IMG/VR virus record: IMGVR_UViG_3300042882_001391
Location: 1 to 27,161 of that record
Source of the DNA: a virus
Strand: one strand, 5' to 3'
DNA: 27,161 bases
Part shown: piece by piece, positions 4,226 to 26,454 of the stretch
Numbering within the stretch: position 1 is the first letter of the stretch
Layout of the letters: every line of letters starts with the position of its first letter
Notes under the pieces: generated by a model
Database searches by the model: none
Told to the model about the DNA's origin: nothing
Seen by the model: only the letters and a program-made list of their open reading frames with translations
Program-made: the position numbers and the translations under genes

Positions 4226-6349
4226 ATGGGAATGTTTTCGGATATTGATTATTCTTTGATTGTTTTGCAATTAGAGAAAGCAATGGCTAATGGTGTGGCT
4301 ACCTTGGATTCAAATACCAAGGTTCCTAAAGCTCAGATTAGTTTAACCGCGTCTGATGTTGGTGCGATCGCGTCTACTGGTAACGAAGTTTTAACAAGTT
4401 TAAACGCCGCGTCTGGCACAATTTCATCTGGGCTTTTACCGTCTTATGTTGATGATGTCCTGAGTTATACAAACCTTGCCGGGTTCCCAGGTACGGGTGA
4501 AACTGGAAAGATTTACGTTGATGAAACGACTAATAAAGTTTACCGATGGTCGGGTTCTGTTTATGTTGAGATATCGAGTTCTGCTACTGCGGGAGAGGCT
4601 TTAAAACTAACCACGCCACGGACAATTACAACAACGGGGGATGCTAGTTATTCAGTATCTTTTGATGGTTCAGCCAATGTTACAAGTGCGATAACACTGG
4701 CAACGGTCAATAGTAATGCTGGTTCTTTCGGTAGTGCTAGTTCAATTCCTGCTATTACTGTCAATGCTAAGGGTCAAGTAACTGCGGTTTCAACTAACAG
4801 TATCGGCAACGAATTAATTGCTATTCAATCGCTATCCGACACCCCAGGATTCCTAAAGAAAACAGGGGATGGGACTTATTCAATTGATATTAATTCCTAT
4901 CTTTCATTGGCGGGTGGGACTATCACGGGGAATCTAGCAGTAAACGGAAACATAATAGGTTCTTTAGGTGCAGGAGTTAGTCTATATCAAGGGTCTCCTC
5001 TCGGTAGTACATCTGGAGATTTTCAAGTTTTATCTTCAAAAACAGGGGCATCAGGAAACATAATAACAGAAAGAACTTGGCTTTGTCGGAAAGCTAATGG
5101 TGTAGACTGGAATACAACCAGTTTTCATAACGGGATAGCTGTTGATGCTTCCTTTAACATTCCCCTGAGTACCACTAGAACGTGGTGGGAGAGAGATATA
5201 TCGACAGGGATTCAATCCTGGGGAGATGGTGCGACTACTTATTTCTCTGTTGATAGTTCGAGATTTCATATTCCCCTATCAACCCAATCAACATCAACAA
5301 CTACAGGGGCTTTAAGGGTCGCTAGTTTAGGGGTTACGGGTGCTATTTTTGCTGGTACTGTTAGTGCCAATTCTTATAATTTGATTCCTATTGGGAGAGG
5401 AGGGGGGAGTTTAGACACAAATACAATAACAGGAGTTAGTGTGCTCCAGGCCAATACCACAGGTATTGGCCTGGCAGGTTTTGGAACTGGGGCTTTACAA
5501 AATAACACCACAGGGAATTATTCAACGGCAGTTGGAGTTAGTGCGCTTTTGTCCAATATTACAGGGAGTAGTTTAACTGCCGCTGGACTTAATGCGCTTC
5601 GTTCTAATACTACAGGGAATAATTCGTCTGCTTTTGGCGTTGGGGCTTTAGAAAATAACACTACAGGGAATAATTTAACTGCCTCTGGAGTTGGTGCGCT
5701 TTTCAGCAATATAACAGGGAGTAATTTGGCAGGTTTTGGAGTTGGTGCAGGACGCTTCACTTCTGACGGCGTTACAGGTCTAACTATCTCAAATAACTCT
5801 TGTTTTTTTGGCGCAAATACAAAAGGAACCCAGAACGCAACCAACGAAAACGTATTTTGTTTTAACGCCACCGGTAACGGCTCAAACACCGTAACAATTG
5901 GTGATTCAAGTATCACCAATACCTACCTAAGAGGTGTGATATCAACTAATTCCACAACACCTTCAACATCTCCCACCACGGGAGCTAGTGTAATTCCTGG
6001 GGGACAGGGGATTGGAGGAAATCAATATGTTGGTGGTTTCAGTTCTTTAGGTGGGGACGCTAATCATCCAGGGATTAAGATTAAAGTTTTGACGGGGACT
6101 ACGGCTGCAACTGAAGGGGGGGTTGCATTAATAGCTCATGGAGTTACGGTTTCAAAAATTGTATCCGTCACAGTATTAGTGGAATTCAGCGCAAACGCGT
6201 TTGTATTGTCTGGATATGATACACAGTTTGTTGGTCTTCATTTTTCCGTGTCCGTGTCAGTGGCGGACATACAAATAATAAATCATCCAACAAATAGCGA
6301 AAATATTTTATCAAAACCAGTTAAAATAACAATAATTTACACGGCATAA
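4226..6349 (+). CDS. Tail fibre protein with YadA-head-like repeats
   Basis: A 707-residue presumed receptor-binding fibre. Residues about 65-115 match the phage-fibre segment with 'SYVDDVLSYTNLAGFPGTGE' followed by an 'IYVDETTNKVYRWSGSVYVEI' type beta unit. Residues about 125-195 carry the widespread fibre block 'TITTTGDASYSVSFDGSANV' and 'ITVNAKGQVTAVST'. Residues 406-507 are six consecutive 17-residue repeats (consensus AL-xNxTGN-xxxAxGVG), resembling the left-handed beta-roll heads of trimeric autotransporters. The C-terminal 150 residues form a distinct domain, probably the receptor-binding tip or a trimerisation domain. The start follows an AGAGGA sequence, and the next gene begins 4 bases after the stop. 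Trimeric assembly and host-cell binding are inferred from family. Confidence 0.88.
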   Translation: MGMFSDIDYSLIVLQLEKAMANGVATLDSNTKVPKAQISLTASDVGAIASTGNEVLTSLNAASGTISSGLLPSYVDDVLSYTNLAGFPGTGETGKIYVDETTNKVYRWSGSVYVEISSSATAGEALKLTTPRTITTTGDASYSVSFDGSANVTSAITLATVNSNAGSFGSASSIPAITVNAKGQVTAVSTNSIGNELIAIQSLSDTPGFLKKTGDGTYSIDINSYLSLAGGTITGNLAVNGNIIGSLGAGVSLYQGSPLGSTSGDFQVLSSKTGASGNIITERTWLCRKANGVDWNTTSFHNGIAVDASFNIPLSTTRTWWERDISTGIQSWGDGATTYFSVDSSRFHIPLSTQSTSTTTGALRVASLGVTGAIFAGTVSANSYNLIPIGRGGGSLDTNTITGVSVLQANTTGIGLAGFGTGALQNNTTGNYSTAVGVSALLSNITGSSLTAAGLNALRSNTTGNNSSAFGVGALENNTTGNNLTASGVGALFSNITGSNLAGFGVGAGRFTSDGVTGLTISNNSCFFGANTKGTQNATNENVFCFNATGNGSNTVTIGDSSITNTYLRGVISTNSTTPSTSPTTGASVIPGGQGIGGNQYVGGFSSLGGDANHPGIKIKVLTGTTAATEGGVALIAHGVTVSKIVSVTVLVEFSANAFVLSGYDTQFVGLHFSVSVSVADIQIINHPTNSENILSKPVKITIIYTA
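5441..5746 (+). repeat. Six tandem 51-bp coding repeats in the tail fibre
   Basis: Six in-frame 51-base units encode 17-residue repeats with a core of AL, then N-T/I-TG, then A-x-G-V/L-G/N/S. At DNA level the units are diverged but share 'aca ggg a' at the TG position. Such repeats build a beta-roll shaft or head and can change in copy number by recombination, altering fibre length. Confidence 0.85.
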
Positions 6350-6353
6350 AATC

Positions 6354-15268: not shown

Positions 15269-16300
15269 TTAGTTAATTGATTTTAAGATTGCCAGACCTA
15301 ATTCTTTAGCCAATAACGGAGGCACGGCGTTTCCTATTATTTGTTGGCTTAAAGTTTTGGATTCTGGGAATTGATAGGAGTCGGGGAAAGTCTGGAGCCG
15401 TGCCGTCGCTTTCTGACTAATTCGTTTAATTTGGCTTCCCTGCACGATGTCCGCCCAATGGGTTGAAACATCCTTCATAGCTCGAATTGTTGGGCAGGGT
15501 TTGTTCTGTGGAGTCGGGAGAATATTCTTGATGCAAGCTCCCGCTCGGGGGATTAACAGGATAGGAGAATGCGAGTTAACATGACCACTCACAATAGTAA
15601 AACTTGGATCGTTTGACTCCCGAACTGTAGCCTGTCTAATGAGTTGTTTCCCAATATCAATCCAGGCTTTTTCTGGTAAATAACCCAATTCATTTAGTCG
15701 CTTAATCTGCCAGTCTGCAAGCTCACAGTCCTGCATTTCTGGGATTAAGTCAGCAATGGCTTGATACCATCCCTTTTTGGGTTTTGATTCGGGGAAATAG
15801 GGGAGAGGTTGATCATTTTTAACTGCCCACATAATCAACCGTTTCCGGTTTTGGGGAACCCCGTGATCCGCCGCGTCAAGTATTAACCAATGATAGCGAT
15901 ATCCGTGGCGAATTAAGGATTGTAGGATTTTCTCGAATACAGGTGATTTTGAGTAGCCAGGGACGTTTTCTAAAACTACCCATCGAGGATCAATCGCTGC
16001 GATATAACTGCTACAGTACAGCCCCGCGTCCTTGTCTTTGTGATCGCCTAAATTACCCCGTCTAGCGTTTGAATACTGTTGGCACGGGGGACTCATCCAA
16101 AGCAGGTCAACATAGGGAAGACTGCGGGGGTTTATGTCTCCTGCGCAAGAATTAAATACTTTGGTATTTGGGAAATTTAATCGTGCTACTTCTGCAATTT
16201 TAGGATCTCTTTCAATTCCCCATAAAGACTTAAACCCTGCGGCCTCTAACCCCAAATCTGCACCGCCTCCGCCCATGAATAATGTTGCGAATGTTGGCAT
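15269..16300 (-). CDS. C5-cytosine DNA methyltransferase
   Basis: 343 residues with the family motifs in order. The SAM-binding motif is 'FMGGGGADLGLEAAGF' (residues 8-23), and the catalytic PPCQQ has C73 (motif IV). ENV is at 111-113 (motif VI), QNRKR at 150-154 (motif VIII) and IGNAVPP at 322-328 (motif X). It transfers methyl groups to C5 of cytosine. There is no neighbouring restriction gene, so a solitary phage methyltransferase protecting phage DNA from host restriction is likely. Target site unknown. Its ATG overlaps the preceding stop by 1 base (TAATG). The region between motifs VIII and X, from about 160 to 310, is the target-recognition domain and looks complete. Confidence 0.92.
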   Translation of the reverse strand: MPTFATLFMGGGGADLGLEAAGFKSLWGIERDPKIAEVARLNFPNTKVFNSCAGDINPRSLPYVDLLWMSPPCQQYSNARRGNLGDHKDKDAGLYCSSYIAAIDPRWVVLENVPGYSKSPVFEKILQSLIRHGYRYHWLILDAADHGVPQNRKRLIMWAVKNDQPLPYFPESKPKKGWYQAIADLIPEMQDCELADWQIKRLNELGYLPEKAWIDIGKQLIRQATVRESNDPSFTIVSGHVNSHSPILLIPRAGACIKNILPTPQNKPCPTIRAMKDVSTHWADIVQGSQIKRISQKATARLQTFPDSYQFPESKTLSQQIIGNAVPPLLAKELGLAILKSIN

Positions 16301-16863
16301 TAGAAACCCTCCTCAACAATTGTTAAGCCACAGCCGGGGAGCAATAAATTAGGATCGTTTGATGAACTCAACACCACCATTCCAGAGGGTAAGCATTCTT
16401 TTACAGTGAGGATTACATTGCCAAAATTCTTGTCTGTAGTTTTGACATGATCGCCTTTCTGGAAAGCGTAATTTCCGAGGGGGATTTGTTCCCCTTTGAC
16501 CATCTGAATAAATAGTTTTATCTTGTCCGAGTCTAAGGATTCTGCCAATCCTTTCGCCCACTGAATTTTGATTTTATTCCCCCGGCACATAATCACCCGT
16601 CCGATGTAACGGCTATCCTTTTTTAATTGCACAATATCTGTTTTTTTGAATGGGGATGAGTCGGAAACCTCCTCAAAGTCTAGGGTTTCCGATCTGGTTT
16701 TTTCGTTAGTTACTTGACAGGTTTGTTTTAATACATTGAAACTTTCAACTCGCCATGCTGTACCTCTTATTAGATAAGATGGGCGGTGTTTATGTGGGTC
16801 AATCTCTACCCACTCACCAATTTTTAAGATTCTTTCAATTATCTTCTTGGTTGCTGCGGTCAT
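16300..16863 (-). CDS. Unknown protein with KOW/Tudor-like segments, 187 aa
   Basis: A 187-residue beta-rich protein. Repeated patterns 'WVEIDPHKHRPSYLIRG', 'FKKTDIVQLKKDSRYIGRVI' and 'FQKGDHVKTTDKNFGNVILT' each read like a small beta-barrel strand set (KOW/Tudor type), suggesting three such barrels and nucleic-acid binding. This is pattern-based. It overlaps the methyltransferase start by one base, so the two are co-translated. Confidence 0.6.
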   Translation of the reverse strand: MTAATKKIIERILKIGEWVEIDPHKHRPSYLIRGTAWRVESFNVLKQTCQVTNEKTRSETLDFEEVSDSSPFKKTDIVQLKKDSRYIGRVIMCRGNKIKIQWAKGLAESLDSDKIKLFIQMVKGEQIPLGNYAFQKGDHVKTTDKNFGNVILTVKECLPSGMVVLSSSNDPNLLLPGCGLTIVEEGF

Positions 16864-16867
16864 GGCG

Positions 16868-17296
16868 TTAATTAACCTCTTTTTTGTATTTTCGGGTCGG
16901 TGTTTCTAATGCTTTCTTTAGTGACCAACCCCGTTGAAGTCTTTGAGCAAAATATTGGAGGGTCATCGGGGGGTTTTGGTTTTGGTAAATCCATTCGACG
17001 GTATGTTGTCTTCCCCTGAAATAATAGGTTTTAAAAATGGGATTAGGGGGGATGATTTTGTCTTTAATCTCCTGGATTCTTTCTTCTGACAGTGGTTCGA
17101 TTTCGTATCTGCCATAAGTTAGTGGTTTAATGATTCCAAACTTAAGAAACCGTTTTATTCGGGTGTTTGAATTTGGAATATTCAAATTAAACTTATCGCG
17201 CATTTCTTGAACTTTAAAGGAAGTTTTGCCTTGTCTCTGCTGTTCGTAAAACCAATTGATAATACTTCCTAAGTCTTCCCAACCAAGTATGTCCAT
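16868..17296 (-). CDS. Unknown protein, 142 aa, winged-helix-like start
   Basis: A 142-residue basic protein with an N-terminal helical part (NWFYEQQRQGKTSFKVQEMR) and an 'LNIPNSNTRIKRFLKFGIIK' segment that resembles the recognition helix and wing of a winged-helix domain. The ATG follows the DnaB stop with no gap. The C-terminal part has 'WIYQNQNPPMTLQYFAQRLQ', another helix pair. It may be a replication-associated DNA-binding protein; family not recognised. Confidence 0.6.
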   Translation of the reverse strand: MDILGWEDLGSIINWFYEQQRQGKTSFKVQEMRDKFNLNIPNSNTRIKRFLKFGIIKPLTYGRYEIEPLSEERIQEIKDKIIPPNPIFKTYYFRGRQHTVEWIYQNQNPPMTLQYFAQRLQRGWSLKKALETPTRKYKKEVN

Positions 17297-18613
17297 TTAG
17301 TTCATCCCCCGTACTAAATTTTTAAATTGGGTAAATTGAGAATCGAACAATAGCTTTACTGTTCCGGTGGGGCCGTTGCGATGTTTAGCTAAAATTAATT
17401 CAGCTATTCCCGCGTCCGAAGTGTTGGGATTATAATAATCATCTCGATAGATCATCATTACTAAGTCCGCGTCTTGTTCAATTGAGCCCGATTCTCTCAA
17501 GTCTGAAAGCATTGGGCGTTTATTGGTGCGCTGTTCGACGCTACGACTCAACTGAGACAGGACAACTACAGGAACGTTTAAATCTTTTGCCATTCCCTTT
17601 AATCCCCGTGTAATTCTTGACAATTCTTGCACCCGATTATCACTTCCTCCGTCCATTAATTGCAGATAATCTATTAGAATTAAGCCTAACTTTCCATCGT
17701 TATCGGCTTGCAATCTTCGAGCTTCAGAACGCATTTCGGTGATGGTAATATTCGAGGTGTCGTCAATATAAATCGGTAATTCTGCTAAGGAACTAATTGC
17801 GGTTGTCAAAGGTTCCCATTCCTCTTGCTGAATGTTTCCTGAACGAATGCGGGTACTTTCAATTTTGGTTTCGCTCGATAATAGTCTTTGGACTAATTGA
17901 CCTTTAGACATTTCTAAACTGAAGACCGCGACGGGTAGCCCTTTTTTGGCAATGTTATATCCAAAATTTAAAGCCAAACTCGATTTGCCCATTGCAGGTC
18001 TTCCTGCCACAATAATTAAGTCGGTGTGTTGGAATCCTCCAGTCATAGCATCGAGGTCATAAAATCCAGAGGGGACACCGGGGGGAATCTTGCTTTCGCT
18101 CCGGTCTTCAATTTCTTGAAAGGTATCAATTAAAGTTTCACCAATCGAAACTAAATCCTGTTGTGATTTTGATTGGGAAATATTAGCAATTTGTTCCTCT
18201 GACTTTTGGAGAATTGTCTCTAAAGGTTGACTGGTATCTTCTGCCAATTCAATAATTTTATGGGCAGATTCAATTAGGTTTCTTCGAGTTTGCTTATCGG
18301 CAATTAACAGCCCGTATTGATCAATGTTAACTGCTGAAACTGTGCGGTCTAATAATTGGGTTAATCCTAATTGTCCCCCGGCTTTTTCAAGTAATTTCTG
18401 ATCGGATAACCAGGTAGTGACGGTCATTAAATCCGTGGTTATTCCCTCGGAATGTAATGCTAAAGCTGCTTTGTAGATTGTTTGATGCGATCGCAGGGAA
18501 AAAGATTTAGCAGTTAGCGTTTCCGCAACTCGCCCCATAGCTTCGGGGTCTAAGAGAATCGCTCCCAAAACGGCTTGTTCTGCCTCAACGTTTTGCATGA
18601 TTATTGTTTCCAT
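17297..18613 (-). CDS. dnaB: Replicative DNA helicase DnaB
   Basis: 438 residues, close to the usual length, with both DnaB domains. The N-terminal domain (1-105) begins with 'VEAEQAVLGAILLDPEAMG'. The RecA-type motor has Walker A GRPAMGKS (204-211), the catalytic Glu in FSLEMS (E234), Walker B LILIDYLQ (311-318) and the arginine-finger region KHRNGPTG (410-417). It forms a hexamer that unwinds the fork. No intein or frameshift is seen. The start overlaps the upstream stop by one base (TAATG), so translation is coupled to the loader-like gene. Confidence 0.95.
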   Translation of the reverse strand: METIIMQNVEAEQAVLGAILLDPEAMGRVAETLTAKSFSLRSHQTIYKAALALHSEGITTDLMTVTTWLSDQKLLEKAGGQLGLTQLLDRTVSAVNIDQYGLLIADKQTRRNLIESAHKIIELAEDTSQPLETILQKSEEQIANISQSKSQQDLVSIGETLIDTFQEIEDRSESKIPPGVPSGFYDLDAMTGGFQHTDLIIVAGRPAMGKSSLALNFGYNIAKKGLPVAVFSLEMSKGQLVQRLLSSETKIESTRIRSGNIQQEEWEPLTTAISSLAELPIYIDDTSNITITEMRSEARRLQADNDGKLGLILIDYLQLMDGGSDNRVQELSRITRGLKGMAKDLNVPVVVLSQLSRSVEQRTNKRPMLSDLRESGSIEQDADLVMMIYRDDYYNPNTSDAGIAELILAKHRNGPTGTVKLLFDSQFTQFKNLVRGMN

Positions 18614-19200
18614 TATTTCGCTCCATTTAAGTTTTTATTCATTTTTGTGGCGATCAGGTTATTTAGAAATTCCTGATTTTTTAACTTCTGTTCCTCTGAA
18701 ATCTGTGGCTTGAGTCCATTGGGCTTGAACTCGATTTGCTCACGGGGGATGACCTGCGTGGGACGCTCAAATTCTCGCGGGGCTTTTCGGTAGGCTTGCC
18801 AATGAGTCTTGAAATCGTTGCTCAGGTAGTTGAGTTGGGTACTTTCAATCGACCCAAGGTGAGACATCCCTCCGAGTTGAACGATTGCATATTGACTCGC
18901 ATCGTCTAAATTATTCAACGGGAGGCGTTTAGCAAGCGATTCTAGGCATCTTGACCAACAGTTACTTACTAACTCACGTTCGGATTCTTTAACGAGGCTT
19001 ACAAGCTCTTTTCCCGTGGGACACTTGCTAAGGTTGAAAATTGCCTCACGGATTGCAGTCTCAAATTCTTCAGCTGATAACTCCTGAGAGAGTTTGTCGA
19101 ACCAAATTTCATATTTGAGTTCGGTGAAAATCGCGTCGGAAAAATTTTCTTTCAGGTTTTCAATTCCCTGATCAAAGATTTCATCGTTAAGCTCGGTCAT
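18613..19200 (-). CDS. Helicase-loader-like protein, 195 aa
   Basis: A 195-residue protein between an initiator-like gene and dnaB, the place of lambda P or SPP1 G39P-type helicase loaders. The N-terminal half 'KYEIWFDKLSQELSAEEFET' and 'CPTGKELVSLVKESERE' resembles the helical domain of those proteins. A later 'QLGGMSHLGSIESTQLNYLS' with 'DFKTHWQAYRK' recalls a widespread phage/plasmid family with a 'ALGGW...FLRKxFxxAY' signature. Its role as loader is inferred from position and weak similarity. It lies between the initiator stop (19203) and its own ATG with a 2-base gap. Confidence 0.6.
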   Translation of the reverse strand: MTELNDEIFDQGIENLKENFSDAIFTELKYEIWFDKLSQELSAEEFETAIREAIFNLSKCPTGKELVSLVKESERELVSNCWSRCLESLAKRLPLNNLDDASQYAIVQLGGMSHLGSIESTQLNYLSNDFKTHWQAYRKAPREFERPTQVIPREQIEFKPNGLKPQISEEQKLKNQEFLNNLIATKMNKNLNGAK

Positions 19201-19202
19201 GG

Positions 19203-20378
19203 TTAGGCTCCTTTTTGTTCGCGTTTGGCTCTCAGGATGGCGAGGCGTTCATCCCTAGAAAGTTCGCTGATATTGCGGGTCTGGGTTGATTTGCCACCGC
19301 TAAACTTGGCTTTTGATTTCAACCACGACTCGGCATCGGCAAGGATTTTTAGTGGCTCGGATTTCCATTTCTGAGCAAGGGAAGATTTGGCATGGTTTGA
19401 ATTACAGTCTTTGCCCCTGTAATGAGTGCATTTGCTTAATAGCCCCCTGTAATATTCCAAAAACTCAGGGTCGGGCGATCGCTCACCTCTCATGGCTCCG
19501 GTCGCCACAATTGCGTTCCAAGTTTTCATATTGTCTGCTGTTGCGTCCGTTGGTAGAAATCGAGGATCGGACTCGACGGCGGCGGAATGTCTGATCACCG
19601 GATTAAGATTTTGTTCAGGTCGGTGATTCTCTTTTTGACTTTGCTGTGTAGCAGAGTCCTCGGTAAGCTCTTTCCCCTGGTCTTCGTTTGAAATCAAAAC
19701 GGCTTCGTTCTGAATCCCCCCCTCCTCCGATTCCCCTTGGGGGGTAAGGGGGGTATTTTCTGGAGTCTTTTCTGAAGTCTTTTCTGAAATATCTATATAA
19801 GGAATAGGAAATTGGGATTCACCACTCTGGTAAATTGGGATTCCCGATGATGGTAAATTGGGATTTACCATATTCAGTAAATTGGGATTCCCGATTTCCT
19901 GTAGATTGGGATCTACCATTTGGGGTCTAGTTTTCCGTGGGCGAAAACCCACTGATTTTTGCCTGGGTTCGATATCGGAAATTAGCTCATCTACCTTGCT
20001 GTGATTCCGAAAGTAGAAAGTTAACCCCGACCTCCGGTCAACGTAAGAACAGTAGTAATTACAACCAAATTCCGATCCGCTAGATTTTGCTTCGTCATAC
20101 TGGGTTTTGGAGTTGTAACGGACTCCAATCTTGTCAAACCCAGTCCTAAATTCTTCTTTAGAAAAAGCGAGTTCCTCAACCCAACTATCCCCAAGCCTGT
20201 AGTCCTGATGTCCGTTTTGAGGGGGTTCTAAAAACTTATAAAACCCGTCTGGATACTTTGCGAAACGATACTCAAGTTGCATCATAAGAATCGTGGCTAC
20301 TACGCTCCCTGTTTGCTGTCTGAGTCCGGGGATATAGGGGACGGCTTCTGCAAAGGCGGCTAGAATAGATGGTTTCAT
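19203..20378 (-). CDS. Replication-initiator-like protein with intragenic iterons, 391 aa
   Basis: I choose ATG 20378 because it overlaps the upstream TGA (ATGA); a start at 20396 is less likely. The N-terminal about 140 residues form a winged-helix-like domain (SVVATILMMQLEYRFAKYPD ... WVEELAFSKEEFRTGFDKIG ... YFRNHSKVDELI), as in phage initiators. The middle, about 150-260, is a disordered linker rich in Pro/Asn/Gln/Glu that contains the DNA repeats at 19807-19925. The C-terminal part is basic. Such layout (wHTH, linker carrying the origin, helicase loader next, then dnaB) matches lambda O-P. Role inferred. Confidence 0.7.
   Translation of the reverse strand: MKPSILAAFAEAVPYIPGLRQQTGSVVATILMMQLEYRFAKYPDGFYKFLEPPQNGHQDYRLGDSWVEELAFSKEEFRTGFDKIGVRYNSKTQYDEAKSSGSEFGCNYYCSYVDRRSGLTFYFRNHSKVDELISDIEPRQKSVGFRPRKTRPQMVDPNLQEIGNPNLLNMVNPNLPSSGIPIYQSGESQFPIPYIDISEKTSEKTPENTPLTPQGESEEGGIQNEAVLISNEDQGKELTEDSATQQSQKENHRPEQNLNPVIRHSAAVESDPRFLPTDATADNMKTWNAIVATGAMRGERSPDPEFLEYYRGLLSKCTHYRGKDCNSNHAKSSLAQKWKSEPLKILADAESWLKSKAKFSGGKSTQTRNISELSRDERLAILRAKREQKGA
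19752..19806. other. AT-rich asymmetric block next to the iterons, possible DNA unwinding element
   Basis: This block carries two exact 12-bp direct copies AGTCTTTTCTGA (19764-19775 and 19776-19787) followed by AT-only sequence such as ATATCTATATAA. One strand is pyrimidine-rich over about 30 bases. In lambda the equivalent AT-rich, strand-biased block follows the iterons and melts first. Here the matching order supports an origin, but function is inferred. Confidence 0.6.
19807..19925. repeat. Five iteron-like repeats inside the initiator gene
   Basis: Five copies of a core ATTGGGAT (starting at 19811, 19834, 19857, 19881 and 19905) are spaced 23, 23, 24 and 24 bases. Copies 2-3 and 4-5 form a 47-48 base super-repeat. 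In copies 2 and 4 the core is flanked by a GGGATTCCC dyad, in copies 3 and 5 by GTAAAT/ATTTAC and GTAGAT/ATCTAC dyads with paired compensating changes. The encoded peptides are NPNL, IPIY and SQFP, so the same DNA is read in all three frames. This indicates selection on DNA. Likely initiator-binding sites of a replication origin. Confidence 0.8.
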
Positions 20379-20653
20379 ACAGCCCCCACTTCCCACTTAC
20401 TGGGATGAACTAAGGTATAGTTTTCCGTTTCGATATCACCGCTAATTAAACCGAGCTTAATTAGCTCGCGCAACGCAAGCCTTGTCTGCGTTTTTCCAGA
20501 CGCGCGTCGTCTGGAAAAACATTTTGACGTGATTTGATCAACCGTTGGAAACGTCTCGTGATTTGCAATATGGCAAACGATCGCAAAATAGACTCGGAAT
20601 GCTTCGGCGGACATTCCAATGTCATCCAATTCTTCTGAAATTGAAATCTTCAT
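20375..20653 (-). CDS. Winged-helix DNA-binding protein, 92 aa
   Basis: A 92-residue protein, first in the leftward replication operon. 'GMSAEAFRVYFAIVCHIANH' then 'FPTVDQITSKCFSRRRASGK' and 'TRLALRELIKLGLISGD' read as helix-turn-helix with a wing, a MarR/DnaD-type winged helix. The middle RRRASGK is strongly basic. Its TGA overlaps the ATG of the initiator-like gene. It may regulate or assist replication. FFT not applicable; family not assigned. Confidence 0.65.
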   Translation of the reverse strand: MKISISEELDDIGMSAEAFRVYFAIVCHIANHETFPTVDQITSKCFSRRRASGKTQTRLALRELIKLGLISGDIETENYTLVHPSKWEVGAV

Positions 20654-25325: not shown

Positions 25326-25715
25326 ATGCAAGTTGAACAAATTGAAACCACTGAAATTGATAACGTCATTCAATTAAAAGCCCCAGAGAAAAATATGGGG
25401 ACAGTGATGAATAAACAGGGTAAATTAGTCCAATCTGTTTATAATTTGCAATCGGATTTAATAGCAGGGGGAATAAACAAATCTGTCTACATTCTCTATA
25501 TGCTTCGTCTTCTTTATGGCTGCAATAAAGATTTAGAAGTTACACCAGAAAATCTAATCACAATACTTGACTGTTCTGGCGTAACTCCATTGGGGAAGGA
25601 GAAAGAAATTAAATTCGACGTGCAAGATGTTCAGGTTGAATTGGCAAAACTTTCTAAAAAAGGATTGTTGGAGATTAACGAGGTTCCTATTCAGTTAAGG
25701 ATTCAAGGTTTATGA
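25326..25715 (+). CDS. Unknown protein, 129 aa, helical
   Basis: A 129-residue protein with AGGAGA 4 bases from the start. The front is Glu/Thr-rich; the rest alternates helical segments ('QSVYNLQSDLIAGGINKSVY', 'QDVQVELAKLSKKGLLEINE'). It resembles a small phage wHTH or adaptor but no motif is certain. Its TGA overlaps the next ATG by four bases. Confidence 0.6.
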   Translation: MQVEQIETTEIDNVIQLKAPEKNMGTVMNKQGKLVQSVYNLQSDLIAGGINKSVYILYMLRLLYGCNKDLEVTPENLITILDCSGVTPLGKEKEIKFDVQDVQVELAKLSKKGLLEINEVPIQLRIQGL

Positions 25716-25993
25716 TTGCCACAGCCTACGAATTTGGCTCCAAACATGAAGCGGTCAAACTCCTGGGATTAAAAAATCCCGATTCCGTTAAACACTCTCA
25801 CAAAAAATGGATCGAAAATATTCATTATTACAAACGCCCTGGGGGGAATCGGGCGGGGTATGGCTACAATTTGACACTGATTAAACATTGGATTCAGTGT
25901 CATGAAGATGTTAATGATCCAAACCATTGCCGAGCGATTGCAGATTATTTGCGATCGCTAAACCCCAAAAAACACAGGAGGAAACATGATTGA
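25712..25993 (+). CDS. Excisionase-like HTH protein, 93 aa
   Basis: A 93-residue protein with 'SKHEAVKLLGLKNPDSVKHS' and 'HKKWIENIHYYKRPGGNRAG' giving a helix-turn-helix then a wing-like turn with Pro-Gly-Gly, and 'LTLIKHWIQCHEDVNDPNHC' as a further helix. This pattern is like MerR/excisionase-type DNA-binding proteins. No integrase is seen, so a regulatory role is equally possible. A HIP1 octamer is at 25951-25958. Its end overlaps the next ATG at 25986 by 8 bases. Confidence 0.65.
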   Translation: MIATAYEFGSKHEAVKLLGLKNPDSVKHSHKKWIENIHYYKRPGGNRAGYGYNLTLIKHWIQCHEDVNDPNHCRAIADYLRSLNPKKHRRKHD

Positions 25994-26123
25994 TTGGACT
26001 GGCCTGCGTGACTTTCGAGCCAACTTCAGACTATGGCGCAATATTGTCAGTCGTAAAAAACCCCACGAGTGGCAACTGACAACGTTTTGGTATTGGTTGA
26101 ATTATTATTCTGGAGGGAATTGA
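25986..26123 (+). CDS. Tiny Trp/Arg-rich protein, 45 aa
   Basis: A 45-residue frame, MIDWTGLRDFRANFRLWRNI and ending YYSGGN, overlapping the upstream gene by 8 bases. It has seven aromatic residues in the second half. GGAGGAA lies about 8 bases upstream of the ATG, which supports translation. Its end (GGAGGGAATTG) gives the ribosome binding site of the next gene. Family unknown. Confidence 0.6.
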   Translation: MIDWTGLRDFRANFRLWRNIVSRKKPHEWQLTTFWYWLNYYSGGN

Positions 26124-26124
26124 A

Positions 26125-26454
26125 ATGCAAATGTCTTGGCGCGATTGTTCAATCTCAAAGATTGCAGACTCTTTGATCGAGTACGAAGCACAATGCGCTT
26201 GTCTGAGCGAAGAGATCAACTCTAAGGATGCCCGGAAGTATTGCAACGACCGCTACCCATTCGGAGCCAGGGAATACAGTCCTTACAAAATCTGGCTTGA
26301 GGAATTGAAACTGATTCCTAAATTTGTGGCACTGAAACAACCGTTCAGAACCTATCCCCACTGGCGAAACCGTGTCAACAGTCGGGGGGAATCGTGGAAC
26401 AATCCAAAACGTAAAGCGGTTGCTAGTGAGGGTCAGTTAAGTTTGTTTATCTAA
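26125..26454 (+). CDS. Unknown protein with beta-clamp-binding tail, 109 aa
   Basis: A 109-residue protein with a helical Cys-containing front (MQMSWRDCSISKIADSLIEY, then EAQCACLSEEINSKDARKYC) and a segment 'YSPYKIWLEELKLIPKFVAL'. The last residues are QLSLFI: Q104-L-S-L-F108 is an exact fit to the bacterial sliding-clamp (beta clamp) binding consensus QLx(L)F. A role at replication forks or in recruiting the host clamp is plausible. GGAGGGAA precedes the start by 5-6 bases. The family itself is not recognised. Confidence 0.65.
   Translation: MQMSWRDCSISKIADSLIEYEAQCACLSEEINSKDARKYCNDRYPFGAREYSPYKIWLEELKLIPKFVALKQPFRTYPHWRNRVNSRGESWNNPKRKAVASEGQLSLFI

Follow-up and report, generated by a model that had tools for sequence, protein, structure and literature searches.

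Small proteins of phages and plasmids with putative sliding-clamp-binding tails

Introduction

The window analysed here, meaning the whole stretch of viral DNA at its full length of 27,161 nt, raises the question of whether a small phage protein could reach the replication machinery of its host through a pentapeptide at its C-terminus. Motifs that bind the bacterial sliding clamp, DnaN, follow the consensus QL(S/D)LF or Q-aliphatic-x-[LM][FL], with other examples likewise located in C-terminal tails (PMC11139829). QLSLF stands at the C-terminus of PolC in Bacillus subtilis, where it binds DnaN with a KD of 3.8 uM (PMC12309361). Use of the host sliding clamp is known for few proteins of mobile elements, most of which are enzymes or toxins. 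The reading favoured here, to which we assign a probability of roughly 0.58, is that the protein encoded in the window is a non-enzymatic docking protein of mobile elements, with its tail on DnaN giving access to the host replisome.

The gene and its product

The earlier note on this DNA had described a 109-aa protein ending SEGQLSLFI, and the plus-strand open reading frame (ORF) at 26125-26454 translates exactly so, its C-terminus reading ...KAVASEGQLSLFI. QLSLF forms residues 104-108 and agrees with the consensus QL(S/D)LF, as expected from the exact fit to the clamp pentapeptide that had been claimed. The start of the ORF is directly abutted by the stop codon (TGA, 26121-26123) of the preceding ORF. 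The gene and its product comprise the following features:

26112..26117, + strand: Shine-Dalgarno-like GGAGGG, identified from the sequence, 7 nt 5' of the ATG
26125..26454, + strand: ORF of the clamp-motif protein (orthologue of PaV-LD ORF133L), ATG to TAA, 109 aa
26125..26385, + strand: helical core predicted by AlphaFold, residues 1-87, with helices at 5-27, 33-42, 51-69 and 74-87
26254..26295, + strand: family signature YPFGAREYSPYKIW, residues 44-57, containing positions invariant in 74 members
26386..26433, + strand: variable linker predicted to be disordered, residues 88-103, pLDDT ~50, differing in length and sequence between close relatives
26434..26448, + strand: putative clamp-binding motif QLSLF, residues 104-108, on the grounds of sequence, conservation and enrichment

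AlphaFold, supplied with 68 family sequences, predicted four helices within residues 5-87 (mean pLDDT 82), with pLDDT above 90 over residues 11-80 and a disordered tail at residues 88-109. The pLDDT of ~50 across the tail holding the motif is in keeping with the flexible C-terminal placement that the earlier note had suggested. The model of a distant family member (L137) has three helices, again followed by a low-confidence tail. A fold search of BFVD returned the PaV-LD protein as its sole match, while fold searches of the PDB returned only weak matches, all of the common small-helical-bundle kind, and none suggesting a partner.

The motif is unusual within the window. Across all frames, this is the sole ORF of 45 aa or more with Q..[LM][FLP] among its final 12 residues, and the sole one of 80 aa or more to contain Q[LMI][SDENGT]L[FLP] at any position. 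The rough chance of QL[SD]LF occurring near the end of any of ~45 genes is 2e-4; the wider family, described below, provides much stronger statistics.

The gene belongs to a cluster of small ORFs, which includes the following upstream:

25326..25715, + strand: 129-aa ORF of the small-ORF cluster, syntenic in PaV-LD, L005 and L013
25712..25993, + strand: 93-aa ORF of the small-ORF cluster, syntenic in PaV-LD and 84% identical there
25986..26123, + strand: 45-aa ORF of the small-ORF cluster, with relatives ahead of the gene in PaV-LD and at other loci

A DnaB/methylase module lies at 15269-20653, on the strand opposite to this cluster, and the cluster and the divergent module both have syntenic counterparts in PaV-LD. 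Such an arrangement is compatible with an early region, as implied by the description of the protein as early in the earlier note, but is no proof of one. General scans with Pfam and PHROGs recognised no antitoxin among the ORFs neighbouring the clamp-motif gene. The DnaB of PaV-LD (L163:3659-5398, 579 aa) contains an intein-splicing domain, which seems to be absent from that of the window (17297-18613), as the latter is only 438 aa in length.

Conservation among close relatives

The DNA around the gene is identical in a 96 kb IMG/VR contig (L002), and both this contig and the window are of the same kind as the Planktothrix phage PaV-LD. The orthologue in that phage, ORF133L (HQ683709, ADZ31640.1), is annotated only as a hypothetical protein. 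It is 91.5% identical over its full length, shares the QLSLF end, and is found with an upstream small-ORF cluster and a replication module as in the window, but lacks the terminal Ile. Together with ORF133L, full-length orthologues were found at 31 IMG/VR loci, at ~68-100% identity. QLSLF closes every full-length close relative, the extra Ile being found only in the window and L002, because 6 nt (TAGTAG) at the PaV-LD stop are missing from the window.

Among 18 distinct close-clade genes, a set that leaves out the fusions L035 and L036, QLSLF has undergone zero amino-acid changes while its Gln codon and one Leu codon vary silently, and the 20-codon linker 5' of it differs at 10 columns, with an indel of one residue. 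This conservation is partly due to recent common ancestry. A cause at the DNA level, in the form of an overlapping downstream element, was rejected, since the DNA of close relatives diverges straight after the stop codon and the codons of the motif change silently. In the fusions themselves (L035/L036, 5815-6200), a relative of the 45-aa upstream ORF runs in frame into the clamp-motif protein, of which the N-terminal part is gone and the C-terminal half, QLSLF included, is retained. At another locus (L022, ~6301-6350), a 15-bp unit ending in the stop codon (TAAGTTTGTTTTAGC) is tandemly repeated across the gene end.

The earlier note had looked to relatives for retention of the motif alongside variation elsewhere, and had regarded a lack of conservation among homologues as counterevidence. 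The motif survived this comparison: it is the same throughout the PaV-LD clade, in which linkers vary, and recurs in distant relatives from phages and plasmids, although its conservation is not universal across the wider family.

A wider family of phage and plasmid proteins

Searches with tblastn gave weak matches to Pseudomonas plasmids over residues 3-62, and back-translation of the signature YPFGxRxxxPYKxW, scanned over IMG/VR, gave ~140 contigs. The resulting family set comprised 128 distinct sequences, in 97 clusters at 80% core identity, and Y44, P45, G47, R49, P53, Y54 and W57 were invariant across 74 members. An hhalign comparison between profiles of the PaV-LD clade and of 28 non-cyanophage members gave a probability of 99.1 (E 1.7e-18), limited to residues 1-63. 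As judged by sequence, the clamp-motif protein therefore belongs with the small YPFGxRxxxPYKxW proteins of phages and plasmids; and as the core alignment ends at residue 63, the tails constitute an independent observation.

Named carriers include PaV-LD, a Rhizobium phage, and Campylobacter and Cereibacter plasmids. A family member is present on 235 plasmid records, almost all of them from Pseudomonas, including large conjugative plasmids. The diversity of the family is found in IMG/VR and in plasmids, with hardly any relatives among isolated phages (INPHARED) besides PaV-LD and the Rhizobium phage.

Scans of up to 74 members with Pfam, PHROG and NCBIfam found no model worth naming, Pfam showing neither a transposase nor any other match of note among the 74, and searching PDB sequences with both profiles returned nothing useful. 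Weak matches to MutY (best E 0.012 across 74 members) were ascribed to the look-alike PYKxWLxE and chance. A Paenibacillus contig (L031) was also rejected as a relative, as it resembles a flavodoxin-type quinone reductase and has only KIWLEELK..YPHW in common with the family. Individual plasmids showed further arrangements. One P. aeruginosa plasmid (L039, 1432-1944) encodes a fusion of the core with a TrfB-related DNA-binding protein, in which the motif is lost, whereas the core protein and the TrfB-related protein are separate adjacent genes on its sister plasmids (L044 and L197). On plasmid pNY5709-IMP (L200), a truncated family member directly follows a UmuDC-like pair of S24 peptidase and Y-family polymerase.

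Recurrence of clamp-type motifs in the tails

QxxLF tails were found in 25 of the 97 clusters, against an expectation of 0.57 when each tail was shuffled. The same pattern occurred in the last 36 residues of 0.8% of 2124 other ORFs on these loci. It was also present in 4 of 15 held-out loci, which were those fetched after the hypothesis had been formed, against 0.12 expected. Of the matched motifs, defined as Qxx[LM][FL], 25 of 27 end at most 5 residues from the C-terminus, and the motif is not always terminal across the family. Most frequent are P at -2 and G, R or N at -1, followed by Q, L, S/D/E, L and F; Q, L and F are fixed, while the third position favours S, D or E, like known clamp motifs. 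Members from Pseudomonas plasmids retain Q-x-[DE]-hydrophobic-hydrophobic (QLDLF, as in L040, QMELF, as in L044, QTDLF, QTDMF and QADFF), with QIDFL and QMEFEF found at the same place in other members from these plasmids.

Roughly half of the 97 clusters have no LF-type motif, and instead have other tails or nothing recognisable. Other endings were also enriched: [GP]LF in 21 clusters (0.95 expected), [ST]P[LM]E in 12 (0.23 expected) and W..[LIA]YG in 7 (0.02 expected). On a poorly resolved tree of the core alone (57 columns), tail classes were clustered yet intermingled, with 12 changes on the tree compared with 23.1 after shuffling, and only 2 forced by well-supported branches. The poor resolution of this tree means it gives no firm count of independent gains of the motif.

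These observations bear on whether QLSLF matches the consensus by chance, or whether this end is conserved for some other role, such as a degradation signal, packing against the core, or binding to some other peptide-binding partner. A pentapeptide is by itself weak evidence, and the conserved [ST]P[LM]E and W..[LIA]YG tails mean that family tails probably serve further roles. Yet neither chance nor these other roles would readily account for the excess of QxxLF, repeated in the held-out loci, nor for fixed Q, L and F around a third position that matches known clamp motifs; moreover, the motif need not be terminal, and lies in a tail predicted by two models to be disordered. An origin in chance or another role is hence improbable. 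Rather, the invariance of the motif in the PaV-LD clade, and its recurrence in distant relatives, make a clamp-binding role likely, and it is probable that the clamp-motif protein binds DnaN.

Replication context

No DNA polymerase of family A or family B, nor a Pol III alpha subunit, was recognisable in PaV-LD and seven related contigs, and these elements therefore probably use the host replisome. PaV-LD does encode DnaB. Complete three-domain DnaN homologues (404-406 aa) are encoded by two of the seven related contigs (L169:7681-8892 and L170:16038-17255), near genes for a C5 DNA methylase and the small subunit of ribonucleotide reductase. No match to DnaN was found in PaV-LD, in L002 (which encodes the identical protein) or in four other related contigs, records that may be incomplete, nor in 12 distant carriers, the contigs of which may likewise be incomplete.

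The DnaN genes of these two phages mean that the host clamp need not be the partner in every case, and the tail might instead dock on a clamp encoded by the phage, or on some other phage partner. The presence of the motif without any DnaN match in PaV-LD, L002, the four related contigs and the 12 distant records speaks against docking of this kind in place of docking on host DnaN, and we consider it very unlikely.

Beside distant members lie, among others, RecT, RusA, DNA methylases, helicases, GemA and NinG, with only 1-3 of 114 neighbours for each. Clamp-type motifs are also present in two other proteins of PaV-LD: ORF029L (L163:16783-17160), a small protein resembling a fragment of a DNA methylase, likewise ends in KQLSLFDVA, and the PAPS-reductase-like ORF020R (L163:11844-12731) has the N-terminus MAIQLDLFG.

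Discussion

The docking of a mobile-element protein on DnaN would be achieved as follows. Firstly, a compact, basic helical core would bear the YPFGxRxxxPYKxW signature, serving either as cargo or to contact DNA or a partner. Secondly, a flexible linker would bring the C-terminal QLSLF, replaced by QxxLF in relatives, into the hydrophobic pocket of DnaN. Thirdly, docking would put the core, and any DNA or protein held by it, at replication forks or on freshly replicated DNA, such that an element without its own polymerase could thereby reach the host replisome.

The main rival to such an adapter is a pocket blocker, in which the tail fills the pocket of the host clamp and displaces polymerases or repair proteins, slowing or redirecting host replication or repair. 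A small protein with a free tail that binds the pocket would by nature be a competitor, and overexpressed clamp-motif peptides inhibit Escherichia coli. Phage and toxin proteins that attack DnaN are also known, in Twort Gp168 (PMC11139829) and RipA (PMC12795458), and the DnaN of the two related phages could spare their own replication. However, the family is stably carried on hundreds of Pseudomonas plasmids, and its presence on 235 plasmid records argues against a strongly toxic blocker, favouring an adapter. The apparent need of the phages for the host clamp makes a strongly toxic blocker less likely still, as no DnaN is carried by PaV-LD or by five of the other seven records, and these would poison a clamp that they probably need. 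Nor does a simple competitor require a conserved folded core. Blocking is an unlikely reading, albeit less so than the other alternatives, and if the protein binds DnaN, it is reasonably likely to act as an adapter.

The variety of tails suggests a broader, tentative proposal: the family might be a modular plug, in which one conserved helical core, shared by phages and plasmids from widely differing bacteria, is combined with interchangeable C-terminal short linear motifs, each docking on a different hub of host replication or repair. These motifs would include the QxxLF clamp motif, and perhaps also [GP]LF, with [ST]P[LM]E and W..[LIA]YG as the others.

The docking protein probably belongs to a kind of mobile-element protein not described before, which attaches itself to the host replication machinery. 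If so, it would represent a general route by which mobile elements attach to the host replisome, and a function could be assigned to a 'hypothetical protein' present on hundreds of plasmids. The family is common yet unnamed, spanning cyanophages, proteobacterial phages and Pseudomonas plasmids, and offers a sequence-varied set of natural candidate clamp ligands.

Known systems provide partial parallels. The IS1634-type transposases are likewise mobile-element proteins that reach the host replication machinery by a clamp motif (PMC4549789), whereas the clamp-motif protein has no recognised transposase domain or catalytic residues. Gp168 of Staphylococcus phage Twort is likewise a small phage protein that acts on the host clamp, as is predicted for the clamp-motif protein, but it targets the DNA channel of the clamp rather than the peptide pocket (PMC11139829). 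Inhibitors of the Gp168 type also block loading. SocB and RipA are also small proteins acting on DnaN, but are parts of toxin-antitoxin modules, SocAB and RipAB (PMC12795458), in which the toxin is paired with an antitoxin gene. The closest likeness in the motif itself is to bacterial clamp binders, as PolC, Pol II, Pol IV, Pol V, MutS and Hda share an identical consensus, and the flexible C-terminal position is that seen in PolC. Yet unlike these proteins, which have polymerase, repair or AAA+ domains, the clamp-motif protein is one of phages and plasmids, in which the motif is joined to a small helical core.
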